Source: Verrucomicrobiota bacterium (GTDB lineage Bacteria > Verrucomicrobiota > Verrucomicrobiia > Methylacidiphilales > UBA1321). From it: 64,000 bases of DNA. Position numbers and translations under genes: made by a program. Below the pieces are notes generated by a model. That model was given only the letters and a program-made list of their open reading frames with translations, was not told the origin of the DNA and did not search any database. How positions within the stretch are numbered: position 1 is the first letter of the stretch; each line of letters starts with the position of its first letter. The DNA lies in contig JABDHJ010000009.1 in NCBI GenBank assembly GCA_013285645.1, positions 1 through 64,000 on the forward strand, written 5' to 3'. Of the stretch, positions 11,471 to 50,413 are shown one piece after another.

Positions 11471-11493
11471 CTCCAAACTGGCCGAGCTTAAAA

Positions 11494-11526
11494 GGGAGGT
11501 TCAACGAAATAACCTCGCCTCCTTGA
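11494..11526 (+). terminator. Weak stem-loop after PEP-CTERM giant 1
   Basis: GAGGTT (11496-11501) pairs with AACCTC (11511-11516) around a 9-base loop, 25 bases after the stop codon. A second outer pairing of GGGAGG with CCTCC is possible. No T-run follows, so a rho-independent terminator is doubtful. Confidence 0.2.
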
Positions 11527-11581
11527 AATAAAAGGGCAACATTTTCTCAAACTCGGGACTTTCGACGAATGTCATCCTTCC

Positions 11582-12670: not shown

Positions 12671-12679
12671 GGACCTTCA

Positions 12680-15706: not shown

Positions 15707-15744
15707 CTAACGAAAATCGGTTGGATAGTAGATATGCCGAGATT

Positions 15745-16431: not shown

Positions 16432-16484
16432 AAGTAAGGAGAGGTATTGCTTTCTTGAGATTAAACTCCCTTCGATAGTGAAAT

Positions 16485-26281: not shown

Positions 26282-26301
26282 GTGTTCATATGTTTTATAT
26301 G
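26282..26301 (-). promoter_or_regulatory. Candidate module 2 operator before the GH-A-like gene
   Basis: Read on the minus strand this is CATATAAAACATATGAACAC, matching the exact 20-base repeat of 32298-32317 at 16 of 20 positions. It keeps the internal direct repeat (CATATAAA, then CATATGAA, 9 bases apart). It ends 18 bases before the preferred ATG 26320. Confidence 0.4.
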
Positions 26302-26319
26302 TATTTGGAGCAACTTTCA

Positions 26320-29300: not shown

Positions 29301-30156
29301 TGACGCGACCAAACACATTCTAATGGGCGGTGTGTTTGACGCCAAAAATTCCGGCTTCGAATTCGATTATAATATTCTGGGAGGTCCACTCGATCAGGGG
29401 AAAAGTATTCGTAATCCCGGACATGCGCCTACCCTGGTCGACAAAGTGGAGTACAAGGTGTGGTTTCCCAATCAATTCGAGGGGACCTTGAAAAGTTATG
29501 ATTTTGCCCTTCGTGAAACAAACTCCACGTCCGTCAACAAAGACAACGAGGTGAGTCAACAGGGAGCGACTCCCTACATGGATGTGCTGGAGATTAATCG
29601 ATGGGGTGACAAGGGGGCGTTGCCGGTGGCTTCCCCAACCGTTATTGCCAAACAGGATTATACCCGCAGCAGTCAACCTTTGGATACTATGGTTTCAAAC
29701 GATGCCTCTGTCCCACCGGGAGCGATCTACCCCATTGCAGGAATGGATTGGAGCATGCCATATCCCGTGTCTCAGCACTATCTGGAGAATTCACCGCTTC
29801 TTTTTACCAGCGTCTCCAGGCTGGATACTTCGGCGACCACGGATAAAACCATAACCGTGACCGGTGCGCAATTGCCGTCACTATGGAATAGTCTGGCTGA
29901 CATCGTGCTGACTTTTTCGAGCAATAAGATGACGAAGGTTGAAGTCACGTTCAAACAGCCTCCGCCCGTGAGCGACGTGGAAACAAAATTCACCGCCATC
30001 CTCGGACAACCGGTCGAAAAGAAGCTGGAAGCGCAATACGGAACCACGGAACTTCACTGGATGAGCAAGGGAGAATTGCCAGACGTCTTCGTGACCGAGA
30101 GTCAGGGTATCATGAAGATTATCTATCAGCCTCCCGCCTCGCAAAAAGCGCCTTAA
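26320..30156 (+). CDS. Large secreted clan-GH-A-like glycoside hydrolase with DNRLRE-type domain
   Basis: This is a 1278-residue protein from ATG 26320, preferred over 26290 because GGAG lies at 26307-26310 and the upstream start falls inside the candidate operator. A hydrophobic export signal lies at about residues 18-38. A DNRLRE-type beta-sandwich follows (about 75-250; D-T-Y-L-W-K, then A-L-I-K-L-D-L-S-D-I-P). A TIM-barrel-like region (about 430-840) comes next, with I-Y-E-I-S-N-E-N-G-F carrying the likely acid/base Glu608 and V-L-Y-E-T-N-T-A-R-P-N-P-F carrying the likely nucleophile Glu779. C-terminal beta domains end the protein. The paralogue at 47243-50413 has the same two Glu 172 residues apart, against 171 here. 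GH-A members cleave beta-linked glycans. I cannot name the GH family. Confidence 0.75.
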   Translation: MITFFFFKRTCNALFGKEFNILILAGTLCGCALTSALSQTNSTAVVVPPPPPDAPGTASLTIGWLKVTGVDQVFPVGQTAVSVTYKSNGTEATASIPVEADTYLWKDSATPMGEGKGLLLRDDRFSEALIKLDLSDIPKDAQIEKASLQFKVGGVERKGESGTFSCFLVKTPWAEDATWVKSQADGENWNGLALGKNFDPTPFATLSVPILDDKQKGGQIIEISDFETVLQKWLSGAAQNNGFLLTFSGKAVQVNLPAREAMDVTRTITLGGAKNGKMLLTPNLPLFDRVLLKPDDLLGAHLTVSIAKMPKAIQSSAAEIKIYQVEEGVSAPGELVGSIPVKSLPLTGIVDLLDLAPALKKNLAGAHDTKQGFLLTVEGGEGTQPEIQIFGAQDRKQAPAINLVVHDYPAAYLYGDVPVRPQPGVFTKVVDGHLTYAGKRLRLWGVVGFPHVDRLIKMGFNAQRVWEPSARVEDVPGKGTYTTESAKKGEFVPYQKGDGSRFDIDDKYFADLKAHNFFVMWGALAGTIPYAPLLADDSFVAGGDDWAQWKEAMQMKGAGDPFHYLFVDERLQKIRKAHAKALLTHVNQYTGKTYAEEENIAIYEISNENGFVTKVLSGELPKWPPYFKNKLQKKWNQWLSDHYKDDVDLKKAWGSLKDGESLAGSTVAPAPDFDDRTNYPEQRGNDFVDFMIDLDNQWNQDFRTYCRSFAPAGVGINVVPFSFDTFYRPSLQWAYGQHLGDVHLQGMYFWDLKSTLDKPPSAYVIDSYTPSDQPTVLYETNTARPNPFRAEYPLKLAALASYQDWDGVFWHYWAPMENEHDVAYLANAMALPGPVYYWTAVMHEVDPVMCTAMALGGRIFLGNRIPPAKDPEIFKIGKQALFSYSAFRGINMADSTFTKGSRLLYEPKDDSAVTLNGKTVPSAGRIEKAIASGDYITWDWPNGRLIIDAPTVKAYVGKVDGSFQFSDGITIGNISTPWIVFSMSSADDKPLTGPDATKHILMGGVFDAKNSGFEFDYNILGGPLDQGKSIRNPGHAPTLVDKVEYKVWFPNQFEGTLKSYDFALRETNSTSVNKDNEVSQQGATPYMDVLEINRWGDKGALPVASPTVIAKQDYTRSSQPLDTMVSNDASVPPGAIYPIAGMDWSMPYPVSQHYLENSPLLFTSVSRLDTSATTDKTITVTGAQLPSLWNSLADIVLTFSSNKMTKVEVTFKQPPPVSDVETKFTAILGQPVEKKLEAQYGTTELHWMSKGELPDVFVTESQGIMKIIYQPPASQKAP

Positions 30157-32387: not shown

Positions 32388-33545
32388 CTAACCTTCCAGG
32401 TTATTGGCCAGCGCAAACTTGGAAATCAAATCACGGCTGCTTCCCTTGATGAACTCGTGGTGAATTTCATAGTAATGCGGTTCGAGTCCGGCAAAGCGAT
32501 CTTTGATTTGCTGGATAAGCGCGTCGGCGATGTCCTTTTCCCGGGTAATAATCCAATCCGCAGGAAGGGGGCAGAGAAATTCAACGTGCTGGTTTTTGTG
32601 CAAAACGAGCTTTAATTCAGATGGGACTTTCACTCCTCTTTCCAATACGGCGATTACCACGCCGTGCGAAACATTTTCCGGATAAACGATCAACCCATCG
32701 GGCTTTTCCTTCAGGTCCCACAATTTGTGGAATTCCTGGTAACCAAATTTCTCCTGGGAGTCTTGATGGGATTTGGGAATCCTGATCCAGGACTTCTGGG
32801 TCTTCATGTTAAATGCTTTCAATTGGGCATTGAAGGCATTGGGGATGGTATCGTTTTCGTTTTTTCCCCAGTCCGGTTTGGACAATGGAGTGGGATGGAT
32901 TAATCCCACGGTCCGGCATCCCTGATTGCTAAGCGTCTGGCACGCCATGGTCATGATCTGGTTAAAATCAATGCATATCCTGCTATAATCCGAGCGCGCT
33001 GAACTGAAAAAGGAAGTCGGAAGGGGCATTTTGCTTAGCCATTCCTCCTTGGGATAGCCAATCAAGGGTACAATCAGCCCGTGTATCGCGTGAGAATTGA
33101 CCGACTCCAAAAGCTCCACGAGCGGCTCCTCCTGCAGTGCCGGTGGTCGGCTGTCGATAAAGACCTTGGCGGAGATGTTTTCCTTTTGTAAAGAATTCAA
33201 AAGTTGTCCGTGCAGGGAGCGATAAAAGGCCCGCTCATGCTTGATCAGGATTTCATCGCCATAGTAGATGCCGACGCTGCCCAACTGCTTGTTTTGTTTG
33301 CGGACGAAAGTTCCCAAGCGGGGTTTTCGTTCTAATAGCCCTTCGCGAACCAGTCGGGTAAGAGCGGTATGGACGGTGAAATAATTCGTGTTCCATTGCG
33401 CGGCAAGATCATGCATGCGCGACAATTTGGATCCGGCCGGGAGTTTGCCGCTGGAAATCAATGACCGGAAATGATTGGTGATTTGTCGATGAAGAGCTTC
33501 GCCTTTCTGAACTTTGAAAGGAGGGATGTCTGCAGACTCTGACAT
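32388..33545 (-). CDS. AraR-like transcription regulator 2 (GntR-type HTH plus LacI-type sensor)
   Basis: The 385-residue regulator starts at ATG 33545. A longer reading from 33617 adds 24 unlike residues. Residues about 14-80 form a GntR winged helix-turn-helix: A-L-H-R-Q-I-T-N-H-F-R-S-L-I, then K-L-S-R-M-H-D-L-A-A-Q-W-N-T-N-Y-F-T-V-H-T-A-L and L-E-R-K-P-R-L-G-T-F-V. A LacI-type sensor domain follows (S-V-G-I-Y-Y-G, D-F-N-Q-I-M-T-M-A-C-Q-T-L-S-N-Q-G-C-R-T-V-G-L-I, and P-D-G-L-I-V near residue 285). It is only distantly like regulator 1. Its gene is flanked on both sides by the same 20-base sequence, which suggests autoregulation and control of both neighbours. Confidence 0.87.
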   Translation of the reverse strand: MSESADIPPFKVQKGEALHRQITNHFRSLISSGKLPAGSKLSRMHDLAAQWNTNYFTVHTALTRLVREGLLERKPRLGTFVRKQNKQLGSVGIYYGDEILIKHERAFYRSLHGQLLNSLQKENISAKVFIDSRPPALQEEPLVELLESVNSHAIHGLIVPLIGYPKEEWLSKMPLPTSFFSSARSDYSRICIDFNQIMTMACQTLSNQGCRTVGLIHPTPLSKPDWGKNENDTIPNAFNAQLKAFNMKTQKSWIRIPKSHQDSQEKFGYQEFHKLWDLKEKPDGLIVYPENVSHGVVIAVLERGVKVPSELKLVLHKNQHVEFLCPLPADWIITREKDIADALIQQIKDRFAGLEPHYYEIHHEFIKGSSRDLISKFALANNLEG

Positions 33546-33662
33546 GGCACCACTATGGGATGGCAGATAATCACTGCAATCAGATTTATCGAAGATTCTC
33601 CTCCCCGCTACGGGCAATCGTGAACAAGTCCACTTTAGTGTCGTGGTCGCAGGAAAGAGATT

Positions 33663-33795: not shown

Positions 33796-35538
33796 ATGAC
33801 CGCGTTGCCCTCCACTTACACCCTCACCGATTCTCAGCGCCTGCGTCTTCGCCGCGCATTGGAGCGCGAGGATCATTCCTACAATCCTGCCGAACGGATG
33901 TTGCGCGTCCCCTTCAGTTCTCCCGGTTATCACACCACGTTGAAAGGCGGTTGGGTCCATCCAACTCGTGAATCGTTTGTCTATGCCGTTGCGTTGCTCG
34001 ATTCCGGGGAGAAGGGTGAGAAAGAAAAAGCGCTCGGTATCCTGGACCGCCTTCTCGCCCTTCAGGATATCAACTCCTCGAGTTCGACTTACGGAATCTG
34101 GTCGTGGTTTATGGATGAACCGCTCGAGCAAATGGCGCCGCCCGACTGGAACTGGGCCGATTTCTGCGGTGCGCAATTGCTTGAGATCGCACTGACTCAC
34201 GGGCCTTATCTTCCCTTGGAAATGCAGGAGCGAATCAAGAGCGCTATCCTCCATGCGGCACGTTCGATTGAACGGCGCAATGTCGATCCCGGTTATACCA
34301 ATATCGCAATCATGGGGAGTTTCGTTTCTCTCACTGCTGCCGAGACCTACGATGTCCCGGATCTCCACACCTTCGCCATGGCCAAGCTGCGCCGTTTTCA
34401 CGCCTACACCCGCGAGCAGGGAGGCTTCACCGAATACAATAGCCCGACGTATACCCTGGTCGCGCTCGATGAATTGGTCCGCCTCCTCCGCTTTGCTCGC
34501 GATCCGGAAGCGCGTGTAATGGTTGAAGAACTCTATCATACGGCATGGAAGGAATTCGCCACCCACTTCCACGCCCCAACCATGCAATGGGCCGGTCCCC
34601 AGAGTCGTGCTTACAAAAATCTGCTGCCGCCGAGGGTCTATGGATTTCTTCATCGCGCCACCGACGGACGCTTTCCTGCCGACGATGTTGAGCCGGAACT
34701 AAACGAGCATCGCCTCGTTCACATCTGCCCGCCCGATCTGGAGCCGCTTTTCTTCTCCCTGGAATCCCCTCGCGAAGTTCGCCAGACCTTCATTCGTGCG
34801 GCAAATGACCGTCCGGATATTATTGGCACCACCTATCTTGCCCCTGCATTCACTTTGGGCAGCGTCAACGTTGGCAGCATGTGGAACCAGACACGCACGC
34901 TCCTCGCTTATTGGGGAACCGAGGAGAAGCCTTCCTCTCTTCGAACCCTATTTCTCCACGATGGCTACGATTTCGCCGCCGCCCACCTTTTGAGTATTCA
35001 GCGCGAGGGAGATATTCTCGCCGGAATCGGTTTCGCGGTCGACGGATACGACTCGCATCCTTTCTTTGACAAGATCAAGGATGGCACGATCCGGGCGCGC
35101 GATATGCGACTTCGTTTCGAGGTCGAGGGACCTGCCGCCGTCGGGCTCCCTCCGGCACCTGCGGAATTGCACGCTCCCTGGACATTCCACGATGGCGATT
35201 TCCACGTCGCTGTTACCGTCCCTCATGCCGCATGGGACGAGTTTGAAGGGCGTTGGGAACGGGGCGACGGTGAAGGAAAGGCCTGGCTCGATCTCGTTCT
35301 CTACGCGGGATCGGAACGGCAATTCTCCCTCGCGGAGATGGCTGATGCGTCGTGCGCTTTCGCTGTCCGCTGCTCGACTGGTTACGCGAAGCCGCCTGCT
35401 CCGGACGTCATGCGCAAAGACGGGCAACTGTTACTGACGTGGGACGGTTTGGAGATCGCGTGCGCTTCTGTGCCGCTTCCGACTGCAACGTTGATGAGCT
35501 CATTTTCCTCGGCAGCTAAAGAACCCTGCTGCAAATAG
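33796..35538 (+). CDS. Uncharacterised 580-aa protein, likely (alpha/alpha) toroid
   Basis: This is a 580-residue protein without signal peptide or membrane helices. Residues about 1-300 are helical and rich in aromatic residues (Y-G-I-W-S-W-F-M-D-E-P, P-P-D-W-N-W-A-D-F-C-G-A-Q-L-L-E-I-A, and G-G-F-T-E-Y-N-S-P-T-Y-T-L-V-A-L-D-E-L). The Y-N-S-P-T-Y block and helix pattern resemble the toroid half of heparinase/alginate-lyase-like proteins. The C-terminal 250 residues are beta-rich, as in the sandwich half of that fold. No H-x-H-N-D motif like that at 12680-15706 is present. It is divergent from AraR-like regulator 2 and likely under its control. The fold call is by pattern; no reaction can be given. 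Confidence 0.6.
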   Translation: MTALPSTYTLTDSQRLRLRRALEREDHSYNPAERMLRVPFSSPGYHTTLKGGWVHPTRESFVYAVALLDSGEKGEKEKALGILDRLLALQDINSSSSTYGIWSWFMDEPLEQMAPPDWNWADFCGAQLLEIALTHGPYLPLEMQERIKSAILHAARSIERRNVDPGYTNIAIMGSFVSLTAAETYDVPDLHTFAMAKLRRFHAYTREQGGFTEYNSPTYTLVALDELVRLLRFARDPEARVMVEELYHTAWKEFATHFHAPTMQWAGPQSRAYKNLLPPRVYGFLHRATDGRFPADDVEPELNEHRLVHICPPDLEPLFFSLESPREVRQTFIRAANDRPDIIGTTYLAPAFTLGSVNVGSMWNQTRTLLAYWGTEEKPSSLRTLFLHDGYDFAAAHLLSIQREGDILAGIGFAVDGYDSHPFFDKIKDGTIRARDMRLRFEVEGPAAVGLPPAPAELHAPWTFHDGDFHVAVTVPHAAWDEFEGRWERGDGEGKAWLDLVLYAGSERQFSLAEMADASCAFAVRCSTGYAKPPAPDVMRKDGQLLLTWDGLEIACASVPLPTATLMSSFSSAAKEPCCK

Positions 35539-35661: not shown

Positions 35662-38600
35662 CTATTCGTTATAAAGTTCCAACTGTTCGTCGACAACCTG
35701 TCCTGTGACGCGGTCGATGGTCACATGCAACCAGTAGCGGCGTTCTCCTTCGACAATAAACTTGCTCAGGTCGCCGGGATTCGCGGTGGCCGCATTCGGG
35801 GGATAGTGGCCCACCTGGGCAACGACATCGATCAACAGATTCCAGGTGCGCGTTGTTCCTAGTTCGCCCAAGGCACGGACCACGGCTTCTCTGCGAGGTT
35901 TGATGGTCGCATCCGTGGTGGGCGAGAAATAGTTGATATAAGGTGTAGTTTGCCGGACAAGGTCCGCGCGGTTGATATACGAATTGGTCGATGTGAACGT
36001 TGTGATGGCGCTGGCGATATTGCTGCTTTCCGAGCTGGAAAGCGTCGAGAGGGGAGTCGACCCTATTTGCTCCGTTTTATAGGCGCCTTGAATTGCCGCC
36101 TGGATCGTGACCGGTTGGCGGGTATTGAGATTGATCTTTCCCGCCACCAGCGGAGCCGGATCATTGCCAAATATATCAAGTAATCCCATGTCGGCACTAT
36201 TGGTGCTGAAAAAGTTAATCGATTTCCAAGGGGCTTGACCCCGGAAAGCGAATCCCATTTCTCCGACGCTGCGGAAAGGGCGATTCAAAATGATAGGGCG
36301 CGCAGCAAAGCTGGTCGCGTTGGTGGCCAGATAGGGATTCGCGTTCGCTCCCAAATAACCGTCTCCGGGACGAAAAATTCCATCAGCGTCGGATTGATAG
36401 GTATTCGTTGTCCAGCCTGCGGCGCTGGCGAAAACATTGTTGCTGGCATTCTCATTAAACATGCCCTCGTAGGCATGGTAAGGGGTCCAGGTGTTTCCTC
36501 CGCCGGTGGAATAGGGGTATGAATAGCCTTCAGGATAGTTGCCATTGCGACCACGAACGACCCCGGCAGTCTTGGTGTCGGGGCGCACACTCATATTGGG
36601 AGAGGCCTGCTCAAAACTCATTCCCCATAGATAAGCTCGTGGATCCCCGAAGCCAGCCGACTGAACATAGTAATTAAAATTTTGGAAGCACGTTACAGCT
36701 CCTGAGACCGTGGGACCGTAGGGTGTCGCACCCGAATGGTCGCTATAACCCATTGCTCCCTGGGCGGTGCTGAAACTTATCGGTGTAATTTGCGAGCTTA
36801 CGGTGGTATTCCCCGCATAGCCCTGATAGGGATGCCAATTGCCGCTCGAATCTTGAAATTGGACCTGAAAGCCTATGTCTCCGGTACCCGAGGAAACCAA
36901 ACCTGAGTTTAGATATTCATAATCGGTGGCCGTGTTTGTATGCATGCTGGTGACAATCCGGGAATCGGGAAGGTTGGTGGCATAGCCGGCCAGGAAGCCT
37001 GAGATCGAATTGCCACTCTCCGTAAAATTCGTCCAATAATTGACCGCTCCACTTGAACTGGTGTTTCCCATGCCGTTGGTCAGGATGGAGGGCTCGCTGA
37101 AAGCGGTAGAGTTGGTAAAGGTTGCTCCGGGCTTGTTGGCATCGGCCGTACTATTGGGGAAATTGAAAGTAGCCGGGAAGGCATAGGTATTTGTTGGAGC
37201 GGTTCCGAGACTGACGTAGGGCGAAACGTTGTTGGTGTGACTTCCGGTGCTGCTAACTCCTTGCATGCTCCAATAATTGGTTACACCGTTATTGGTCGAG
37301 CCGACTGCCTCCATCAATACCCGTAAATTCGACGGGCCGGAGCCGGATGACGGAAGAGTGGATGAATTTTGATAGGGATTCCAAAATTCAACCGGGCAAA
37401 CCATCATGATATCGCTGCGATTGGTATCGCCTGCGGAATCGGTCAGCGGACGATAGGTCCATTGAAGGAATTCGTTGAGATAGGGGAGGCTCTTGTTGCC
37501 GGCATACGTCTCATGGTTGAAATTGATCACCGTGGGCCAGTTGTCGCTGGTGTATTGATCGATGATATTGGCCCCCATCTGCATGGTGACCTCGGACACA
37601 TAGGTGCCGGTGGCGCTGGCGGTCCAAGGGGTGACGAGAGGCGGCAGACTTCCCTGCAAGATTCCGGCCTGGAGCAATTCAAAAAAATTGGGGCTGCGCG
37701 GTGGCGAGAGGGTTGCGACTTGATAGAGCTGCGCGATCGCGGTCGTTGATGGCGTATAGTTCCAGCTATAACCATCAGGAGCATGCACCAATCCAAAATA
37801 ATTGCTGATCGCCGCCGCGTTGTTGACGGGATCGGCGAAAAGTGCCAGGCGGCTGAGCGGAAAACGTTGGGAGACGAGAGGCAAGCCATTGGCTTGGCGC
37901 ACCAGAGGGATATTGGGATTGAAGGTGTTGGTTGCGCTCGTATAGCCATTTAACGGAGGCAAGATGCCAGAATTACCACCAGCTGCGGGAGCTGCCAGGA
38001 TGGTCTTGAGTGCTTTCATTGCGGGCATATTGGTGCCCAACTGCGCGCCATACGGGAAAAAACTGGGGGCATTCACATCCCGGCTATAAGTCGTGACGTA
38101 AGGCAGAATATTTGTCAGCCCGTTGTCCTGGGCGTAAGCGATCAAATCCTGACGGCTTAAGAATGCGTTGTCGCCCGGCGCGACGTAAACGTAGTTGTTC
38201 GTTCTGCCGAAGCTGTTGGTCCCTTGCAATACCGTGCCAATGGGGCCATTGGTCGTGGTTAGGTTCGTGGAATATAAATAGTTTGTGTAGCTATTCGCAG
38301 TCGCTTCGGAGCCAGCATTACGCCAGGCGATCAGTGCCTGAATCTGGGGTGTGGTCAGTCCGGGGATTGCCGTTAAATCCATCATGCCGGGAGTTCCCTT
38401 GCGGGCCAGATCGGTGGCCGAGATGGAGGAACCATCTCCAAATGTTGCGGGATATCCCGCCAGGTTGATATTGATGAGACCGCCTTCATCATAAACCGCA
38501 TAGGCAAAGCGACCGATCGCGTAGTTATTCTGATCGGACACATTGGCAAAGTACGGAAGTTGCGTCGTGGCATTCGTCATCGAAGTGGGACCGGACCGGG

Positions 38601-39144
38601 TGACCATGATCCAGTAGGGATCTCCACTGTCATCGGTAGGAAATGTGCCGATGCAGGGTTCGCTCCACCGGGCGGCATCCACGTAGCGCCCGTTAAGCGA
38701 CGGAACCGAAGTGCGAATACTCGATGGCAGTACCCCGCCATTGGGAAAGGCCCCTCCCGGTATATAGGCACTGGTGCCGCTCATGCTGATTTTGAGCAGG
38801 CTGACCATATTCGCATTGGTGCCCACCGGTTCCGGCATGATGTTGGTGGAGGCAAGGTTGACGTAAATGGGATAGCCCCCGGTGATATCGGGAGGCGTTC
38901 CTGAATCCATCTCCTCCTGGAGTTCCTTCACCACCCACCATGCGCCTCCCTGGGCCATTTGATCGGCCTTGAAGGACTGCCCGTAACTGAGGCTCGCCGC
39001 GCGATGCAATTGCATCGTCACGACAAACGCGATCACCGTCACGCTGAGGACGGCAATCATCAGCAGGACCGTCACCAAAGCCATGCTGCGTCTATCGCGG
39101 CAATACTCGGTGGACTTTTTGCCGTGTCTAGGGAAGGGGGACAT
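35662..39144 (-). CDS. Verru_Chthon cassette protein A (GspK/PilX-like), complete cassette
   Basis: The 1160-residue protein starts at ATG 39144. A reading from 39345 adds 67 residues that are a shadow of the C gene. The leader M-S-P-F-P-R-H-G-K-K ends in a basic stretch, followed by a helix with S-M-A-L-V-T-V-L-L-M-I-A-V. There is no Glu5, as in GspK. It carries all the conserved blocks listed for the stand-alone copy, for example V-Y-D-E-G-G-L-I-N-I-N, G-A-N-I-I-D-Q-Y-T-S-D-N, K-I-N-L-N-T-R-Q-P, and a closing Y-W-L-H-V-T-I-D-R-V-T-G. The K-I-N-L-N-T block parallels the 'I-N-x-N-T-A' of GspK. It is much larger than GspK because of Asn/Thr-rich inserts. It overlaps the C gene by 17 bases. Confidence 0.9.
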   Translation of the reverse strand: MSPFPRHGKKSTEYCRDRRSMALVTVLLMIAVLSVTVIAFVVTMQLHRAASLSYGQSFKADQMAQGGAWWVVKELQEEMDSGTPPDITGGYPIYVNLASTNIMPEPVGTNANMVSLLKISMSGTSAYIPGGAFPNGGVLPSSIRTSVPSLNGRYVDAARWSEPCIGTFPTDDSGDPYWIMVTRSGPTSMTNATTQLPYFANVSDQNNYAIGRFAYAVYDEGGLININLAGYPATFGDGSSISATDLARKGTPGMMDLTAIPGLTTPQIQALIAWRNAGSEATANSYTNYLYSTNLTTTNGPIGTVLQGTNSFGRTNNYVYVAPGDNAFLSRQDLIAYAQDNGLTNILPYVTTYSRDVNAPSFFPYGAQLGTNMPAMKALKTILAAPAAGGNSGILPPLNGYTSATNTFNPNIPLVRQANGLPLVSQRFPLSRLALFADPVNNAAAISNYFGLVHAPDGYSWNYTPSTTAIAQLYQVATLSPPRSPNFFELLQAGILQGSLPPLVTPWTASATGTYVSEVTMQMGANIIDQYTSDNWPTVINFNHETYAGNKSLPYLNEFLQWTYRPLTDSAGDTNRSDIMMVCPVEFWNPYQNSSTLPSSGSGPSNLRVLMEAVGSTNNGVTNYWSMQGVSSTGSHTNNVSPYVSLGTAPTNTYAFPATFNFPNSTADANKPGATFTNSTAFSEPSILTNGMGNTSSSGAVNYWTNFTESGNSISGFLAGYATNLPDSRIVTSMHTNTATDYEYLNSGLVSSGTGDIGFQVQFQDSSGNWHPYQGYAGNTTVSSQITPISFSTAQGAMGYSDHSGATPYGPTVSGAVTCFQNFNYYVQSAGFGDPRAYLWGMSFEQASPNMSVRPDTKTAGVVRGRNGNYPEGYSYPYSTGGGNTWTPYHAYEGMFNENASNNVFASAAGWTTNTYQSDADGIFRPGDGYLGANANPYLATNATSFAARPIILNRPFRSVGEMGFAFRGQAPWKSINFFSTNSADMGLLDIFGNDPAPLVAGKINLNTRQPVTIQAAIQGAYKTEQIGSTPLSTLSSSESSNIASAITTFTSTNSYINRADLVRQTTPYINYFSPTTDATIKPRREAVVRALGELGTTRTWNLLIDVVAQVGHYPPNAATANPGDLSKFIVEGERRYWLHVTIDRVTGQVVDEQLELYNE

Positions 39145-39907
39145 ATCGTTCGAAAAATTGGACGCCGTGTTTGATATTGCCGGGATAATTGGCGTAATTA
39201 ATGGGATTGGCCGCGCCCGTCGTATGACTGAAGTTGGCCTGCCAGATTTGATAAGGGCTCTGGCCGGAAGCAACGGTAAAAGCGGGATCGGCGCTGAGAG
39301 TGGCGAGCTTGCCGCTCGACACCAGGACGGAGAGGGTCGCGTCATCGACGATGGCCAGGTCGATTCCCACCGCCAGGTCGCCTGTTGCGTAATTGGTGGA
39401 GGTAGTGCCAGTCGGAGTCACAAAAGTGAGTTGCATCTTCAACACGCCATTGACCATGTTCAGGAAATTGGTCGCGGCGGGAATGGTCGTCTGGGTAAAC
39501 GGAATCGTGGCCACGGTATTGGCCGCCCTTTGCAGAACGGAATTGGTCGTGCTCGATTCGATTTGATAGCAAATGAGTGAGCGCGGAGAATCTCCCACCG
39601 TGCTGCTGCTTTGACGAAGCGTATAGAAGGTATTGGAGCCGTTCACAAACGCGGGGACATCGGGCCGGAAGATCCCCAATTGATAATCGAGCGTCATGAT
39701 GTCGAGCGAACTCCGGGCTTTGGTGAAATTATTGATCGTGCTTTTACCCATGAGCCACGTGGAATTGATCGTGATGAAAAAACTCGAAAGTATGGCCAAA
39801 AGAAGAGTTAAAACCGCCATCGAGACCAGAAGTTCGACCAGGCTAAAACTGGCGACCGGTCGACCTCGTGAAACTCTACGGCAACGGAATGCAGGTAAAG
39901 ACTTCAT
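39128..39907 (-). CDS. Verru_Chthon cassette protein C (GspJ/PilW-like pseudopilin)
   Basis: This is a 259-residue protein with a basic leader (C-R-R-V-S-R-G-R-P) and a type IV prepilin helix S-F-S-L-V-E-L-L-V-S-M-A-V-L-T-L-L-L-A-I-L, Glu5 included. The usual Gly before the cut site is replaced by Ser. After the helix come N-S-T-W and K-A-R-S-S-L-D-I-M-T-L-D-Y-Q-L, a pattern seen in GspJ/PilW ('x-x-x-x-R-x-x-L-x-x-L-x-x-D-L'). The soluble part is a beta-rich domain. The start overlaps the B gene stop by 32 bases, so B, C and A are tightly coupled. Confidence 0.88.
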   Translation of the reverse strand: MKSLPAFRCRRVSRGRPVASFSLVELLVSMAVLTLLLAILSSFFITINSTWLMGKSTINNFTKARSSLDIMTLDYQLGIFRPDVPAFVNGSNTFYTLRQSSSTVGDSPRSLICYQIESSTTNSVLQRAANTVATIPFTQTTIPAATNFLNMVNGVLKMQLTFVTPTGTTSTNYATGDLAVGIDLAIVDDATLSVLVSSGKLATLSADPAFTVASGQSPYQIWQANFSHTTGAANPINYANYPGNIKHGVQFFERYVPLP

Positions 39908-40325
39908 AGCGACCTTTCACTTCACTGGGATTGATCGTGGGGTCAATGGAGGGAGGCCACGACAGGCAAAAATAGAGCGAGGCGGTTTTGTTGGCATTTG
40001 AGGTGACCTTATAAGCCAGGCGATACACAGGGAGGTTCGTTTGCGATGAGGAAAGCATGGTGCAGTCTGCTGCGACATAAACGCTGCTTGGATTCATCGT
40101 ATTCGTTAAAGGAAGGATCGGAAAGGTCGAGCTGATCGTGTTGGTTGGCGCCGCGCGGCGTTCTGAAATAAGGAGAGAAGCCATGGTTGCGGCCTGGACT
40201 GTTTCCGACGAATCGTAGCCGGCTTGCGCCCCCACAGACAGGAGGCCTAAAAGCGCAAATAAGCAGAAGGAAACGACGGCAATCGCGATGACCACTTCCA
40301 CCAGTGAGAAGGCCCTGCGCTTCAT
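39876..40325 (-). CDS. Verru_Chthon cassette protein B (GspI/PilV-like pseudopilin)
   Basis: The 149-residue protein from ATG 40325 starts M-K-R-R-A-F-S-L-V-E-V-V-I-A-I-A-V-V-S-F, a standard short basic prepilin leader and helix with Glu5. The cut-site Gly is replaced by Ala. A reading from 40364 adds 13 residues and overlaps the D stop by 4 bases. Translation may begin there, but the shorter form fits prepilin leaders better. The helix continues to L-L-S-V-G-A-Q-A-G, then E-T-V-Q-A-A-T-M-A-S-L-L, as in PilV/GspI proteins. The soluble domain of about 100 residues ends in the tail T-C-I-P-L-P, very like the tail V-P-L-P of protein C. Confidence 0.87.
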   Translation of the reverse strand: MKRRAFSLVEVVIAIAVVSFCLFALLGLLSVGAQAGYDSSETVQAATMASLLISERRAAPTNTISSTFPILPLTNTMNPSSVYVAADCTMLSSSQTNLPVYRLAYKVTSNANKTASLYFCLSWPPSIDPTINPSEVKGRYEVFTCIPLP

Positions 40326-40360
40326 GACAACGGCGAGGGGAGCCACCGCGCGCCTCCTCA

Positions 40361-41095
40361 TCACGGTTGGTAGACTTGGGCCTCGCCCGTAAAACCATTG
40401 ACCCGGATGACTGCATACATCGTGCTGGACTGCGCGGTGCCGTGAAACTGGCAGAGATCGAGTTCAACGGCCTGGGTCGTCGCCGCCTGCACTTTGGCCT
40501 CTCCAGATGGAGTAAATTCGATGCTTTGGGTGAAGGTCTGACTGCCAATCCCGGGGACATTGATCATAAAGGAAGGCGTCGACAATGCCATGCTCGAAAC
40601 TTGGCTGACCGCAGGCACATTGGAAAGAGAATAGGTGCCGCTATTGTAGAGGCCTATCTGGGGGAAGGAGGCCACTTTATCCAGAAGCTGATATTTGGTC
40701 GGATCAGTCGCGTTGGTGGACCACGTCGTCGTCGATCCCAGAGAGCCGCCACCGGTCAGGATTTGCGCCGTGCCGTCCACCGAAGCCACGAGCGCAACAT
40801 AGACCGTTGACGGCTGGGTTGGCGTCGCCGCACTGGTATAAAACGTGGCCCACGTGTAGGTGTTGTTGGCCACGGCGTACTGCCGCGCCCTCTCGAGCAT
40901 GTCTGCGATCGTTGAGCTTTGCGTACTGAAGTTACGCGCTCCTGTCACAGAAAACCCCGAAATCGCCACACTGGTGAGGATTCCTATAATGGTGATGACA
41001 GTCAGCAGCTCGATCAGGGTGAACCCCTGCCGGTTTCTTCTTAGGGACTGATCAGTCGGGCAGTTCGTCGGATGGTAGAATTCGGGCGAGCGCAT
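40361..41095 (-). CDS. Verru_Chthon cassette protein D (GspH/FimT-like pseudopilin)
   Basis: This is a 244-residue protein with leader N-R-Q-G and prepilin helix F-T-L-I-E-L-L-T-V-I-T-I-I-G-I-L. It has the proper Gly-Phe cut site and Glu5, so it should be processed by a PilD-type peptidase. After the helix, T-I-A-D-M-L-E-R-A-R-Q-Y-A-V-A-N-N-T matches the GspH/FimT pattern ('L-x-x-A-R-x-x-A-x-x-x-x-x'). It is the first gene of the minus-strand D-B-C-A run. It is divergent from PEP-CTERM giant 2 across 309 bases. The order D-B-C-A equals H-I-J-K in type II secretion operons. Confidence 0.88.
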   Translation of the reverse strand: MRSPEFYHPTNCPTDQSLRRNRQGFTLIELLTVITIIGILTSVAISGFSVTGARNFSTQSSTIADMLERARQYAVANNTYTWATFYTSAATPTQPSTVYVALVASVDGTAQILTGGGSLGSTTTWSTNATDPTKYQLLDKVASFPQIGLYNSGTYSLSNVPAVSQVSSMALSTPSFMINVPGIGSQTFTQSIEFTPSGEAKVQAATTQAVELDLCQFHGTAQSSTMYAVIRVNGFTGEAQVYQP

Positions 41096-41404
41096 ACAAA
41101 AACCTTGTCGTTACGATAAAACATATATATCAATGCCGTCAAATGCTTTTATCGCCCTGCGGTCAAATAAGTGTGATTTGAAGAAATACCCATGCGAATC
41201 AGAGGCAAACGGAGAAAAGAAAAAGAAATATTTTCAATCGATTCGTTGACGGCAAGTAGCTTCACGGCCCCATACATTATTTTATTGCAATCTTAGGGGC
41301 ATAAGATATAAAAGATATAAATGGCGATTCCATCTATCGCCATCTTGCCGGAAATAGTGATCTACCTTCTTTAAATCTAAGCTGAAAAATTGGAATTAAA
41401 AACC
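41096..41404. other. Divergent intergenic region before the cassette and PEP-CTERM giant 2
   Basis: This is a 309-base, very A+T-rich stretch without a convincing small gene. It contains a 16/20 copy of the module 2 repeat (41305-41324, listed separately) and a weaker A+T-rich match (about 13/20) at 41113-41132, close to the start of the D gene. Shared control of the cassette and PEP-CTERM giant 2 is possible. Confidence 0.6.
41305..41324 (+). promoter_or_regulatory. Candidate module 2 operator before PEP-CTERM giant 2
   Basis: GATATAAAAGATATAAATGG matches the exact 20-base repeat at 16 of 20 positions. It shows the direct repeat most clearly (GATATAAA twice, 9 bases apart). It ends 80 bases before the preferred ATG 41405. 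Confidence 0.45.
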
Positions 41405-44400
41405 ATGAATCCTCCCCGCTCAACGGTCGGTGCGTCCAACCTGGCAAAATTTTTTGGTTTCAAGCGACGGGCTCTTCTCCTTGCCGCTTCCCTCGCGCTC
41501 TTCGCGGGGCAGTCCGCACAGGCGGCGACCACCACCCAGACATGGACTGGCGCCGTTAATGGTACTTGGCAAACACCTGGAAATTGGTCGGGCTCTCCAA
41601 CACCGATTATTCCTGCAGGCACCGTTATCCTGGAATTCAATACACCATACACCAACGCTCCCACAACAAATGGGGCTACTGCTGGGGGAGGAGCGATCTG
41701 GGTGACGAGTGGAATTGGCCAGAACGTTGTGATTGGTGGAACAGGAACTCTTACACTTGCGGGTAACTTGACTGTAAACGGAAATGCCCTCGAGGGGATT
41801 TTACTCGATGACTCTGGAAATGATAATCTAACCATCAACGCCCCACTAGCCCTCACCAATACTAGCACCTTTACCGTCAATAACGCGGGTACCTTGACGC
41901 TTCAGGGGGGCACATTCGCCATCACTGCCGGTAAGACTTTGACATTCAACGGGTCCAATTCCTCAGGCAATATCATTATCAATAGTGCAATGACTGGCAC
42001 GACCGCTGCCATCGTCGTTAATACGGCTGGCACCGTGACGCTCGGGGGCGCCAACTTGAATACGGGGGGGACGACTCTCACCTCCGGTACGCTGGTGCTA
42101 AGCAGTGGGGCCACTTTGGGCGCTTCAGGTGGATTACTGGCGGTTAATGGCGGTGTACTTAATCTCAACGGAACCAGCCAAAACGTCGCCTCTCTCTCCA
42201 GCACAGCTACTGGAACGTCCGGCTTCATTCTCAATAATGGATCCGGTATCTCAACGCTGACCATGAGCGGTACTAACTCTACCAGCTATGTTGGCTCAAT
42301 CATTGATAATAATAACGCAGGTTCGGGCAAGGTCGCTCTGGTTTATGCCGGCACCGGCACCCTGACTCTTGCTGGTACCAATACCGATAGCTACAGCGGC
42401 GGCTTTAGCCTCAATTCCGGCACGGTGATTCTGAACAACGGAACCGCGACGGGTACCGGCCTGCTGACTATTGGCAGTGGAGCGACTATCAGTACTTCCC
42501 TTGCCGGAGGCGTCACCCTGGCTAACAGTGCGCAAGTCTGGAATGGCAGCTTCACTTCCAATATCGCGTCCACGAGTCCTACGAGCTCCTTGAATCTAGG
42601 TTCTGGGAATGTCTCCATGAGCGGCCCGCTCACCATTACGGTGAACGGTACTGCCACTCTGAGTGTGGGCGGTAACATCACAGACTCCACCAATCCCAGT
42701 AATCTCTATAATGCCTCTCTCGATATCACCAAGTCGGGTACGGGTACGTTGGCGTTGGGGGAAAACGTGACTTTGCCGACGACGGTAGTCCAGTCAAACG
42801 TCTCGGCGGGAACCTTGGCCTACGCCGGTAATATCACCTTGGGGGGCACGGCCAATACCATTACCTCGATTACGAATACCGGCTCCGGTACATTGGCTTT
42901 CACGGGCGCAATTGACGCTGGTACGACGAACCACGGCATTGCCATCAATGGCGGCACGGTGCTGATTTCCAACAGCAACAATAGTTACCAAGGTGGCACC
43001 ACCTTGAATTCCGGTGTCTTGGAAACGGGCACCAACGGCCTCAATAACAATGGCGGTACAATCACTTTGAATGGCGGGGAATTTAGTGCGATCGGCTCCA
43101 CAGCCTTTAGTGTGATTGGTGTTACCGTGTCGAATGGAGCCAGCGTTGCCTTTGGCGATACCACGAACACGGGATCGATTACACTTATTACGCCCGCGCT
43201 GGGCACAGGATCAACCTTGAGTTCCAACGTCGGTTTAACTTTCAGCGGAGCAGCAACACTCGATAACTCTACCGGCACAATCACATTCGCGCCCGCGAGC
43301 GGCAAAACGATAGCCCTGAACGGGATCACTGAGGGCTCAGTCAGTGGCAATCACAGCATTGTGATCAATGGTCCTGGAACCGTCTATACGGGTGCTACGA
43401 CCGCTACCTACAATTACGCTGGTTCAACGACCGTCGAAGGCGGAGCCACGCTTCATATTGGGACCCCAGCGCCCCTGCCTTCGACTAGCATGATCATTAT
43501 CAACGGTGTCGGTACGTTGCAACCGGACAATGGCGGCGGCACCGCGACCGTGACCAACAATATCACCGTCAATGCCAATAGCACCCTTAACACCCAGAAT
43601 TCCAGTTCAGGCGGCGACGGTTATACAGGTAGCCTCACCCTCGGTGCAAATTCGGTCGTTAACGTAACCACCGGCTCATCGAAAGGGCCCACCTTTTCCG
43701 GCACCATTACGCTGGGTGGTAACGTCACGTTCTCGGATTCTTCCTTGGCCAATGGTGTTGGCGGCACCCAGGCGCCCTTGAAGTTCTCGGGGCCGATCGG
43801 CGATGGGGGGAACAATTTTGGAATCACTATTGTCGGGACTGAAAGCAACCTCAATTTTGTCAACCTTACAGGCACTAATACGTTTACGGGTGGCGTGAAT
43901 ATCGCCAGTGGCGAACTTGTTTTGGGAAGCACCACAGCCTTGAACAGCACGACCCCCAATATCGTTACCATCAGTGGTTCGAACACCGTAGGTGGTTCGC
44001 TTGACATCCATGGCTTCAATACGGCTGTTGCGGGCCTGAATGGTGCCAGTGGAACCTTCAACGGCATTGTCACGAACGGCGGCACCATTGCCGCCTTAAC
44101 GATCAAAAACTCGACTGCGCAAACGTATAATGGCGTCATTACCAATGGCACCAACGCCTTAAGCCTGGTCGAAAACGGCTCTGCCAATCAGACCCTGACA
44201 GGCGCCAATAGTTACACCGGCGGTACAACCATTACTTCAGGTACGCTCACAGTGACCGGTGGCGCTGGCGTCGCATCCAGTCAGGGCTCGGTAACCGGCA
44301 CCACCACCACCACGATCACGGGGCTTACTTCTACTGGCACTCTAGTGGTTGGCGAGAGCGTCTCGGGTACCGGTGTTGCGGCCGGATCTTACATTACCTC

Positions 44401-46174
44401 CATTACGAATGGTACCACTATTACGATCAACGCGCCCACCACGGCGGCGGGAACCCCGACTCTTAGCTTCGGCGCGTATGGTGCCCTGGGTACGGGTAAC
44501 GTTGCCGTCAATGGCGGTTCGCTTTTCGTTAATGGCACCACCTCCTCTACCAGTGCATTTACTGTCGGCAACAACACGGCTGTCGCTACTTTGGGGGGTA
44601 ACGGCACAATCACCGGTTCGGTCACCACGGCCACGGCGTCAACCGGCAGCAACGTGGCACATCTCGCGCCCGGGGCCGCTGCGGGAACGATCGGGACGCT
44701 CACCATCGCAGGCACGAGTTTCACCGTCGGCAACGGCACCGACTTCGATTACGACCTCACCAACAGCACCCTCGCAGGTGGGATCAGCAATGACTTGATC
44801 GCGATGACCGGCGGTGTGCTGACCTTTAGCGGTACCAGTACCACCTTTAACTTCAACGCCCTGAGCACGCTCGTCACCGGCACTGCCTACACCCTCATCG
44901 ATGGCGCCAGTTCGATCGTCGGCTTCACCGCCGCCAACTTCAGCGCAACCGGCCTGGGTGGTGACACCGCCACCTTTAGCGTCGTCGGCGGCAACCTCGA
45001 CGTCACCTTCTCTCCCGCTGGCAGCGGTCCCGCCTCCGCCTACTTCACCGGTGGCACGAGTTCCGATGCCACCTCCGCCGCCAACTACGTCTCCAGCCCG
45101 ACCGGAGGCACGATCAGTGGCGCACCGGCCGCGAACACGGACGTCTTCTTCACCGCAAACACCAGCGTGACCGGGACCAGCGTCTTGACTCCTAATACCA
45201 ACTCCGGAGCCTTGGACATCAACAGCCTGACCTTCACCGGCACGGGCACTCCTGCCACCGGCAGCGTCGTCCTCAGCGGCACCAACGCCGTTACCATCAA
45301 CGCGGCCAGCGGCGTAGGCATCACGGTCCAAACCGGCGCGGGCAACGACACCATCAGCGCACCCGTGGTCTTGGGTGCCTCCCAAACCTGGTCGGTTGCA
45401 GACGCAAGCAACACGTTGACGGTTTCCGGCCCCGTCAGCGGTAGTGGCTTCGCCATCACCAAAACGGGATCGGGCACCTTGGCCCTCACCGGAGCCAACA
45501 CCTACAGCGGCGGAACGACCGTATCGACAGGTACCTTGCTGGCGAACAACACCAGCGGCTCGGCCACCGGTACCGGCGCGTTGACCGTGAATAGCGGCGC
45601 GACGTTGGGAGGCAAGGGCATCATCAACAGCACGACTAACACGATTAGCAGTGGGGCCAAAGTGCAGGTCGGCAGCGGAGGGAGCAACACGACCGATGTG
45701 CTGACCATGACGGCCTCCAGTTCGACGACCTTTAGCGGGGCGAGCCTGACGTTCAACCTGAACAGCGCCAATAACCAGAGCAACACACTGGCCCTAGGGG
45801 CGACCCCCAGCGTCTTGTTGAGCGGCGCATCGTTGACGTTGAACATCGTGGGTAGCTCCATCATCCCGAATACCACCGCCTACACGCTCTTCACGAGCAC
45901 GATCGGCGGCAGCAGCAGCGGCTTCAGCGGAAGCGCGTTCGGCGATCTCACGATTGACGGAACGGGCAAGATATCGAACGTGAGCCTCAACTTCCTCAAC
46001 GCACCGACACCGGGTTATTATGCAGCGTCCTACCTCCAACTCGTGAACAACGGACCAGGAGATGGCTTTAGCATCGATGTGGAAGTAGTACCGGAACCCG
46101 GCACTTGGGCACTGATGCTCGGGGGGGTGGCGTTGCTGGTGTTTTTCCAGCGCTCCCGCCGCAAGAATAACTAA
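41405..46174 (+). CDS. PEP-CTERM giant 2: autotransporter-associated beta-strand-repeat surface protein
   Basis: This is a 1589-residue protein from ATG 41405; a TTG at 41390 is the alternative start. The long signal peptide (about residues 1-42) has a basic region F-K-R-R and ends Q-S-A-Q-A. The body is a Gly/Thr/Ser/Asn-rich beta-solenoid with repeats such as L-T-G-A-N-S-Y-T-G-G-T-T-I-T-S-G-T-L. It ends in V-P-E-P-G-T-W-A-L-M-L (from residue 1562), a hydrophobic helix and the basic Q-R-S-R-R-K-N-N. The signal and tail match those of PEP-CTERM giant 1. The stretch after about 44,600 uses mostly C-ending codons, unlike the first two thirds, so the gene may be a mosaic. A surface adhesive or glycan-binding role is inferred. 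A strong terminator follows. Confidence 0.88.
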   Translation: MNPPRSTVGASNLAKFFGFKRRALLLAASLALFAGQSAQAATTTQTWTGAVNGTWQTPGNWSGSPTPIIPAGTVILEFNTPYTNAPTTNGATAGGGAIWVTSGIGQNVVIGGTGTLTLAGNLTVNGNALEGILLDDSGNDNLTINAPLALTNTSTFTVNNAGTLTLQGGTFAITAGKTLTFNGSNSSGNIIINSAMTGTTAAIVVNTAGTVTLGGANLNTGGTTLTSGTLVLSSGATLGASGGLLAVNGGVLNLNGTSQNVASLSSTATGTSGFILNNGSGISTLTMSGTNSTSYVGSIIDNNNAGSGKVALVYAGTGTLTLAGTNTDSYSGGFSLNSGTVILNNGTATGTGLLTIGSGATISTSLAGGVTLANSAQVWNGSFTSNIASTSPTSSLNLGSGNVSMSGPLTITVNGTATLSVGGNITDSTNPSNLYNASLDITKSGTGTLALGENVTLPTTVVQSNVSAGTLAYAGNITLGGTANTITSITNTGSGTLAFTGAIDAGTTNHGIAINGGTVLISNSNNSYQGGTTLNSGVLETGTNGLNNNGGTITLNGGEFSAIGSTAFSVIGVTVSNGASVAFGDTTNTGSITLITPALGTGSTLSSNVGLTFSGAATLDNSTGTITFAPASGKTIALNGITEGSVSGNHSIVINGPGTVYTGATTATYNYAGSTTVEGGATLHIGTPAPLPSTSMIIINGVGTLQPDNGGGTATVTNNITVNANSTLNTQNSSSGGDGYTGSLTLGANSVVNVTTGSSKGPTFSGTITLGGNVTFSDSSLANGVGGTQAPLKFSGPIGDGGNNFGITIVGTESNLNFVNLTGTNTFTGGVNIASGELVLGSTTALNSTTPNIVTISGSNTVGGSLDIHGFNTAVAGLNGASGTFNGIVTNGGTIAALTIKNSTAQTYNGVITNGTNALSLVENGSANQTLTGANSYTGGTTITSGTLTVTGGAGVASSQGSVTGTTTTTITGLTSTGTLVVGESVSGTGVAAGSYITSITNGTTITINAPTTAAGTPTLSFGAYGALGTGNVAVNGGSLFVNGTTSSTSAFTVGNNTAVATLGGNGTITGSVTTATASTGSNVAHLAPGAAAGTIGTLTIAGTSFTVGNGTDFDYDLTNSTLAGGISNDLIAMTGGVLTFSGTSTTFNFNALSTLVTGTAYTLIDGASSIVGFTAANFSATGLGGDTATFSVVGGNLDVTFSPAGSGPASAYFTGGTSSDATSAANYVSSPTGGTISGAPAANTDVFFTANTSVTGTSVLTPNTNSGALDINSLTFTGTGTPATGSVVLSGTNAVTINAASGVGITVQTGAGNDTISAPVVLGASQTWSVADASNTLTVSGPVSGSGFAITKTGSGTLALTGANTYSGGTTVSTGTLLANNTSGSATGTGALTVNSGATLGGKGIINSTTNTISSGAKVQVGSGGSNTTDVLTMTASSSTTFSGASLTFNLNSANNQSNTLALGATPSVLLSGASLTLNIVGSSIIPNTTAYTLFTSTIGGSSSGFSGSAFGDLTIDGTGKISNVSLNFLNAPTPGYYAASYLQLVNNGPGDGFSIDVEVVPEPGTWALMLGGVALLVFFQRSRRKNN

Positions 46175-50200: not shown

Positions 50201-50413
50201 TTCTGGAGCGAGGACGACGCGCTGCACGGTGGGTATGTTCAACATCAGGACCAACTGGCCCGCGCCATGGATAGTGGCTGGCTTTCCTGCGGGATAGACG
50301 GACGTGGAAATATCCACATCGATGGGAGCAGCCGTTGTCTCCACAGCCCGAGCGGCACCAATTAAGAAAAAAGTGGCGATGACGACACTAAGAGTTGAGG
50401 CAAGAGTTTTCAT
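47243..50413 (-). CDS. Second large secreted clan-GH-A-like glycoside hydrolase
   Basis: This is a 1056-residue protein with a signal peptide (about residues 1-23, ending A-R-A). It lacks the DNRLRE-type domain of the paralogue at 26320. A beta domain of about 190 residues is followed by a TIM-barrel-like region. This contains G-F-N-A-I-R-M-W-G-P, I-Y-E-L-A-N-E-N-A-H (likely acid/base Glu387) and A-I-Y-E-T-M-D-G-R-P-D-P-Y (likely nucleophile Glu559), and then I-F-F-H-Y-W-D-G. C-terminal beta domains end it. It is the last gene of the minus-strand run with the AraC regulator, reductase, dehydrogenase, GHL6-like and mutarotase genes. A beta-linked glycan or glycoside substrate is inferred. Confidence 0.75.
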   Translation of the reverse strand: MKTLASTLSVVIATFFLIGAARAVETTAAPIDVDISTSVYPAGKPATIHGAGQLVLMLNIPTVQRVVLAPEDILDASLKITLFNPPPAGSLVVYRAIHPDAASPVAGTDYDSQPLATLSMSQFITNSALPPGAKTAEMTGLGDLVRKALTDSPAGQPLLLVTDGAQPNGSFNFAIGGTTLNVKIVSHPKVQLFTPPIQPRDGAYAEDRNGHLYYGDQRLRIWGCVRPQVANVETADRIADMGFNAIRMWGPRPNDLPNGPSTLFDDNTGEFLPTTKGDGSPLDEYDHFFAEAKSKGLFIMATGLMETPHLSAKSEWLKGDGQNWDDWGKAMSAKPDGWIVNFMAAADDRIYQARQQQMKNYLTHVNPYTGKNYAQDEAIAIYELANENAHVKRTLEKGFDKWPPFFVSELQQHWNKWLTDRYHDDAGLAQAWTKLDPNESLGSGTVKLEPVVIHHTAYSDKRASDFIRFLIEIDSDLNKRLEAYARTFAPKGTGVAVIPFSYDTQYMPSSSWLFDNTQNGEVANFGMYFWSLQDPLTKPPGMYVMDSNTVEGKITAIYETMDGRPDPYRSGYPYRLAALAGWEDWDAIFFHYWDGFHEKGRVFPDEAYLAGALSYISPTHYWTAVYYEKDPALLSPMAIAGHMFMTGAIAPAPHPLVYHIGAQSIFSMGGLGGPSLTRATYSEGARIRFEPDSNTGSTLEGGPEGLLDTPPTGAIAMGDQVLWDWPNGRLIIDTPTAKAYVGTPHGKYRFKDGIVVDGFDGKFVSFGMISADGKPLTGADATKKIYITAVNDAKNTGFHIKYDEATDPPPTGGPLGIGKLIDNNGTTPTVVDHIPYQIWFPTDLSGHFTGYDLARRQRLDKPVSGGQVEHDGSEFYLASLSIDNPGTKTVETPQSDTAGANTTASTAITASPAAPAIPGLDEVWNPLPGVKWSDSMQDIDPHLRAAAVHFDGATVTGNRIHLSNTDGVFHSASDADVVFQDDRMESINVTFTQPPVLTDFVAAYDKQLGPAVAKTIARSEDKVSTVKWVVKKEAITITVTATETQGTLSVVYAIGQ

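Follow-up and report, generated by a model that had tools for sequence, protein, structure and literature searches.

The minor pseudopilins GspH-I-J-K (XcpU-V-W-X) of type II secretion systems (T2SS) form a set of four subunits, in which H, I and J carry a glutamate at position 5 of the prepilin helix (Glu5) and K does not. Thermus ComZ is a GspK-like tip into which a DNA-binding domain is inserted (PMC6561018), the type IVa pilus (T4aP) of Myxococcus xanthus has three minor-pilin/PilY1 clusters (PMC7541494), the Myxococcus Kil pilus has four interchangeable tips (PMC12075869), and Verruconatronum alginivorum encodes 67 PulG-like pseudopilin homologues, including one within an operon for alginate (PMC13274419, 2026). 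A four-part logic is also seen in the NCBIfam families Verru_Chthon A–D (TIGR02600, TIGR02598, TIGR02599 and TIGR02596), whose descriptions state no function and whose name was not found in the literature searched. Here we describe a cassette of four genes, D-B-C-A, on a 64,000-nucleotide stretch of contig JABDHJ010000009.1 from a Verrucomicrobiota bacterium (assembly GCA_013285645.1), hereafter the window. With a probability of roughly 55%, we read it as encoding a complete minor-pilin tip comparable to GspH-I-J-K, among many alternative tips in the genome that would depend on the same prepilin peptidase and on one or two shared machines of the type IV family.

The cassette spans positions 41095–35662, and neighbouring genes overlap nearly or truly (Table 1). 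The preliminary description of this DNA had stated that all genes overlap, which holds for B/C (32 bases) and C/A (17 bases), while D/B overlap by 1–4 bases depending on the start codon and not at all with the alternative ATG at 40325. The open reading frame listed for A extends to 39345; the ATG at 39144, which suits a prepilin-type helix, was taken as its start. The prepilin helices of D (RNRQGFTLIELL, core GFTLIELL), B (MKRRAFSLVEVV, core AFSLVEVV) and C (SFSLVELL) have Glu at +5, and the helix of the same kind in A (SMALVTVLL) lacks it as GspK does, with Thr at +5. Among relatives, Glu5 was present in 67/67 D, 50/50 B and 60/60 C sequences, picked with a motif permitting E or Q at this position, and in 0/65 A sequences (62 residues, 3 gaps), which were not so picked. 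The observation originally made on the window, Glu5 in D, B and C and none in A, is thus confirmed both there and among relatives.

Table 1. Positions of the cassette genes, of segments of A and of other features in the window.
Feature	Position	Strand	Annotation
D	41095-40361	minus	Prepilin with Glu5, GspH-like minor (pseudo)pilin, 244 aa
B	40364-39876	minus	Prepilin with Glu5, GspI-like, 162 aa
C	39907-39128	minus	Prepilin with Glu5, predicted GspJ fold, 259 aa
A	39144-35662	minus	Predicted enlarged GspK, 1160 aa, without Glu5
Insert in A, ~residues 366-930	36355-38049	minus	Absent from GspK; borders approximate
Second GspK-like block of A, RPFRSVGEM ... GKINLNT	36115-36288	minus	Profile-profile match
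Secreted beta-strand-repeat giant with PEP-CTERM tail	41390-46174	plus	PF12951 and PF07589 above cut-off
Convergent protein	33796-35538	plus	Faces A; no Pfam match; family unknown
Regulator with GntR DNA-binding domain and LacI-type sensor	32388-33617	minus	PF00392 and PF13377; type recurs beside cassettes
Second enlarged A	16485-20387	minus	Full-length A-profile match; no D-B-C beside it
E after second A	15745-16494	minus	Fifth cassette gene

In its predicted structure, A is an almost complete GspK opened by an insert of ~570 residues. The AlphaFold2 model (pTM 0.82; 65 related sequences, two of them from the window) aligned with all four GspK/XcpX chains offered at Z 13.4, 13.2, 12.7 and 11.7, covering 225–265 of their 259–295 residues, and was followed in the ranking by a minor pilin (Z 5.7) and an unrelated fold (Z 3.1). 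Because the match runs from residues 20–57 through 1160, the GspK fold encloses the insert, for which no confident fold match was obtained. By sequence, two GspK-like blocks are recognizable, ININL at residues 224–228 and RPFRSVGEM...GKINLNT at residues 955–1008; the second, from which an N-L-N-T block like that of GspK had been proposed, matched the GspK of T2SS operons in profile-profile comparison with an E-value of 8e-7 (92%), and unrelated profiles reached at most 1%. Without its helix, A matched GspK only at this C-terminal block (0.5% for the N-terminal part), and the GspK profile also matches the helix of most A proteins. No match to the T2SS-operon GspK profile was found with the profiles of the insert, C or E. 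A has no Pfam match, and sequence searches of the PDB returned nothing for A alone up to E 10 or for the 65-row A profile up to E 1.

Across the 65 A proteins, insert residues 431–600 are conserved on par with the core, and residues 601–930 vary in sequence and length (mean consensus 0.25, versus 0.42–0.63 in most core segments). Such an alignment pattern would suit a scaffold that bears a specific face. It agrees with the earlier proposal of a cargo-specific, enlarged A in that the most variable residues lie in the insert, although residues 431–600 are as constant as the core. Shorter A-like proteins of about 600–930 aa with both GspK-like blocks occur phylum-wide (e.g. G076:C40:6497-8524 and G109:C34:80474-82237), which suggests a graded series of insert sizes.

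C folds like GspJ, as judged from its AlphaFold2 model (pLDDT 91; 46 C rows aligned, one of them from the window). Z-scores were 9.4–11.3 against GspJ/XcpW/EpsJ and Thermus TTHA1219 (11.0 for the latter), 2.9 for the next unrelated row and 2.0 for GspH, and the best Foldseek E-value was 1.8e-5. Searched against the PDB, the C profile matched only pilin helices, besides one chance-level row. The predicted structures of A and C thus resemble GspK and GspJ, as expected from the original comparison with the pseudopilus tip. D matched the NCBIfam gspH model with an E-value of 6e-9. When profiles of D, B and C were compared with those of G, H, I and J from T2SS operons of relatives in 40 resamples, a comparison that draws mostly on the helix and from whose final version a false G row (L179) was dropped, the best partners were D-H in 37/40, C-J in 40/40 and B-I in 26/40 (B-J in 14/40). 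With the helix removed, none of the profiles built from the globular remainders of D, B and C matched those of G, H, I or J; D-H and B-I therefore rest on the helix and gene order, and B-I is a weak sequence-based assignment. The equivalence to H-I-J-K is supported, for J and K by predicted structure and for H and I by helix profiles.

The Verru_Chthon name given to the cassette in the preliminary description calls for caution. For D, B and C, matches cover the N-terminal part of the respective models and score below the curated cut-offs (D, TIGR02596, 37 bits, cut-off 70; B, TIGR02598, 28.9 bits, cut-off 51.4; C, TIGR02599, 35 bits, cut-off 256.5), and B also reaches 25 bits with PilV (of 52.2) and 23 bits with XpsI. 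A has no TIGR02600 match, and the gene order is D-B-C-A-E instead of mostly B-C-A-D. Both types, enlarged and classic, coexist in one genome.

Cassettes are numerous. The single-contig genome G018 (3,763,444 bases, 99% complete) has 18 of them, eleven enlarged and seven classic, alongside a single prepilin peptidase, a single T2SS operon that includes a GspK of its own, and a single PilC locus. The genome of the window itself (G000; 3.18 Mb, 66% complete) has about 18 A-type genes, of which ten are complete and enlarged, two are fragments and about six belong to the classic TIGR02600 type; its T2SS operon is on another contig with its own GspI, J, K, M, D and F, and its PilC locus is separate. 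As GspI-J-K are already present inside the T2SS operon, the cassettes represent extra tip sets, and the suggestion of many cassettes per machine agrees with these counts. Classic-type cassettes with different gene orders in G018 include L207 and L208 (at 0.96 and 1.23 Mb), the A of L208 being split across two open frames. Comparisons drew on the best 80 of 151 related stretches.

Named loci contain 79 enlarged A genes. D, B or C lie upstream of 51 of these, downstream of eight (A-E-D-B-C), and were not found beside the other 20, some of which are at contig ends. The order D-B-C-A, equated from the outset with H-I-J-K, is hence the one found here and the commonest, and is not universal. A fifth cassette gene, E, encodes a predicted secreted protein of about 240 residues bearing an apparent signal peptide (family delineated with phmmer/HMM searches). 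It directly follows A in 51/79 named cases and in 6/10 own-genome cases with room, and is missing after the A gene of the cassette described here. No convincing Pfam or PDB family was found for E; one weak Pfam match to a toxin family among 33 E proteins (E 0.0065) was judged to be chance. The cassette genes are co-inherited (Mantel r 0.59–0.76 over 45 loci, null maximum 0.18).

The second A gene of the window and the E gene after it belong to a unit at 8303-20459 that also contains a PEP-CTERM repeat giant, a LacI-type sensor regulator (11582-12670) and a 1008-aa protein (15706-12680), homologues of which directly follow A-E in L113 and L102. A D-B-C set lacking an adjoining A is found at 8727-10897 of L023 (G000:C3), a mirror image of the window's A-E pair lacking D-B-C. 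Gene E, the sugar-type regulators and this second A had been overlooked in the preliminary description.

Compared with GspH-I-J-K of T2SS, the cassette thus has the four subunits in the same order, the same distribution of Glu5, the J and K folds and the K block 'PF-S..E...INLNT', but its K is enlarged from about 320 to 1160 aa through the insert, it occurs in many copies away from the T2SS operon and also in genomes in which no T2SS was found, and cassettes of its kind usually have E as a fifth gene. With Thermus thermophilus ComZ and TTHA1218/1219 it shares a GspK-like pilin with a large insert and a GspJ-like partner; the ComZ insert is, however, a beta-solenoid between the last two strands, whereas that of A appears to lie in the helical part, and ComZ belongs to a competence pilus. 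The FimU-PilV-PilW-PilX-PilY1 clusters of M. xanthus and KilLMN of the Kil (Tad) pilus are similar in that several minor-pilin clusters with variable outer domains serve one filament. They number three and four, versus 18 in G018, and unlike in M. xanthus no separate PilY1 was found among the cassette neighbours scanned, the scan being limited to these neighbours and not genome-wide. In V. alginivorum, as far as the accessible text describes them, verrucomicrobial pseudopilins are located in or induced with a polysaccharide-degradation operon as single PulG-like proteins, with no H-I-J-K set described (PMC13274419). No account of the enlarged GspK, its co-occurrence with T4aP or the link to regulators was found in the accessible portions of the literature searched.

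Which machine the tips would serve was assessed in 21 genomes with a strong enlarged A (E below 1e-80), in which F proteins were scored with separate GspF and PilC profiles that gave a clean separation; only the largest GspF and PilC matches were listed, and weaker F-family matches are partly covered. PilC was present in 20/21 and GspF in 14/21 of these genomes, which fits a pilus tip better than a tip dedicated to T2SS. In the seven GspF-less genomes (G007, G023, G025, G026, G030, G033 and G039), GspK matches were confined to the short helix hits produced by A proteins, and seven or more absences have a P of 0.006, with 2.5 expected from incompleteness. These profile results favour T4aP as the constant partner and weaken T2SS as an obligate one, contrary to the type II machine originally assumed. 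Any A match was found in 29/40 relatives, all 29 of which have a T2SSF-family protein, and A is absent from the six genomes without such a protein, which all belong to one family. A prepilin peptidase was identified in 30/40 genomes; the A-bearing genomes in which it was not detected (G000, G006, G026 and G028) are all incomplete. In L226 (G023:C1:233000-249900), an additional, divergent E/F pair belonging to the type IV filament family scores as neither GspF- nor PilC-like and is possibly another filament system.

The surroundings of the cassettes point to sugars. The commonest neighbour family in 111 loci, at least four of which represent loci of one organism twice, is a LacI regulator (23 loci), followed by a GntR regulator that shares its sensor domain (12); together with a third family (four loci), judged by its N-terminal sequence only, one of these regulators lies within 6 kb in 38/111 loci and within 500 bp in 25/111. 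A candidate for a further regulator family near cassettes proved to be a dehydrogenase. Within 5 kb of A, a gene with a LacI-type sensor occurs in G008 at 7/17 A genes (1.8 expected), in G018 at 5/16 (1.3) and in the own genome at 4/15 (1.2); the proximity analysis of G008 omits about 12 of its roughly 29 A-like genes, whose contigs are of unknown length, and uses some A ends estimated from helix matches. Recurrent neighbours further include sugar transporters and heparinase-like, GH16, GH38 and fucosidase proteins; L020:3846-7391, at one point a candidate A, is itself heparinase-like.

PEP-CTERM genes are clustered near A in two genomes. In G018, a PEP-CTERM gene occurs no more than 10 kb from 11/16 A genes (the set before two more were identified), with 2.1 expected and 5/5000 rotations reaching this number. 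The own genome has 10/15, with 3.7 expected and 22/5000 rotations; these figures leave aside 9/26 PEP-CTERM matches, whose contigs are short or of unknown length, and the complete or fragmentary A genes of C52, C59 and C75. In the window, the PEP-CTERM giant is divergent from the cassette at a distance of about 295 bp. By contrast, G008, which among the relatives has the most A matches (at least 19), gave no PEP-CTERM protein match, and PEP-CTERM proteins were for this reason rejected as the general cargo; its cassettes adjoin GH95, GH31, GH67-like, pectate-lyase-like and other glycan-acting proteins. The frequent position of cassettes beside LacI/GntR-type regulators and secreted glycan-acting or PEP-CTERM proteins indicates that a tip is probably tied to one substrate programme.

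Further genes were noted around the cassettes. The protein convergent to A has a homologue near the L018 cassette (L018:17106-18770; phmmer E 4e-93). Two large paralogues (E about 1e-187) at 26290-30156 and 47243-50413 lie some distance either side of the cassette, and their homologues directly adjoin A in L017 and L059, making them another candidate partner family. Related repeat proteins are found beside cassettes or on the window's contig at L029:1760-5254, L040:11053-14832 and L019:16432-19899; the C-terminal part of that in L029 resembles an autotransporter barrel and not PEP-CTERM.

Several observations weigh against a tip served mainly by a pilus and chosen by sugar sensors. A retains most of the GspK fold, pointing to type II secretion, and by Foldseek alone it gets no significant match (best E 0.17), though GspK chains were ranked. 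Both machines are present in 13/21 genomes, so that co-occurrence cannot assign the cassettes to one of them; the GspF-less genomes are mostly incomplete (77–95%), and four of the seven belong to one genus, whose other member G020 has GspF. G011 (79% complete) has GspF without PilC, family f4 carries both machines and essentially no A, and 73/111 loci have none of the three regulator families within 6 kb. The main rival would keep the cassettes within type II secretion, as alternative tips of a single T2SS pseudopilus fitted to glycan-acting enzymes or PEP-CTERM proteins encoded nearby, with the A insert gripping cargo in the periplasm. It can draw on the GspK fold of A and the GspH match of D, on a T2SS operon that is separate and single in the own genome, on secreted glycoside hydrolases among the neighbours, and on the use of type II secretion by the GlyGly-CTERM and MYXO-CTERM sorting systems (PMC11980579); yet a third of the enlarged-A genomes lack GspF and GspK as described above, and a native H-I-J-K is already present. 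We regard it as possible, though rather unlikely.

The remaining alternatives concern cargo, filament and specificity. The role initially envisaged for the adjacent PEP-CTERM giant, that of cargo for the cassette beside it, accords with the clustering in G018 and the own genome and with the short divergent spacing in the window, but is improbable in view of G008, in which glycoside hydrolases take this place (a different sorting tail would escape the model), and of G022 and G031, which have 18–19 PEP-CTERM genes each and no A. Minor pilins are able to self-assemble without a major subunit, and regulators are close by, so the pilins might form a membrane-bound complex that binds or senses glycans without any filament; the conserved prepilin sites and Glu5 and the T2SSF-family protein in every genome with an A match make this very unlikely. 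There is equally little to recommend cassettes that are largely redundant duplicates: A paralogues are about 31–38% identical to the window's A, with variable inserts and different neighbours, even though in M. xanthus either of two of the three minor-pilin clusters is by itself enough for pili (PMC7541494). The initial interpretation is, overall, partly supported.

The preferred reading, an exchangeable tip on a shared type IV machine, builds on the prepilin features, the GspJ and GspK folds, the multiplicity of the cassettes, their shared history and their sugar-type surroundings. D-B-C-A would assemble like H-I-J-K, each tip starting a filament and sitting at its end, and A would be the outermost subunit, its ~570-residue insert facing the target and deciding what the tip handles. 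Each tip would probably be switched on with one substrate programme, and sugar-responsive regulators would choose the tip to be swapped in. The likelier motor would be T4aP, and type II secretion might also be used where present. By analogy, ComZ (PMC6561018) and the Myxococcus tips (PMC12075869, PMC7541494) make such a tip device plausible. A more specific version, tentative and on balance doubtful, is that of pilus-based polysaccharide utilization loci, in which one T4aP would be served by about 18 tips, each with its own sugar sensor and with the A insert as glycan receptor.

If this version were true, the A insert would capture one polysaccharide for the enzymes encoded next door, and pilus-based loci would be the filament counterpart of the SusCD strategy of Bacteroidota. 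Exchangeable tips have so far been seen as three or four clusters per machine in Myxococcus; here, eighteen complete sets for a single prepilin peptidase, and a GspK-like subunit at roughly threefold its normal size, would make tip specificity directly testable. Should type II secretion be involved, the finding would bear on the passage of PEP-CTERM proteins across the outer membrane. A tip function would be assigned to families known only by the name Verru_Chthon, and pilus machines would be linked to the finding or digestion of polysaccharides by soil and freshwater Verrucomicrobiota.

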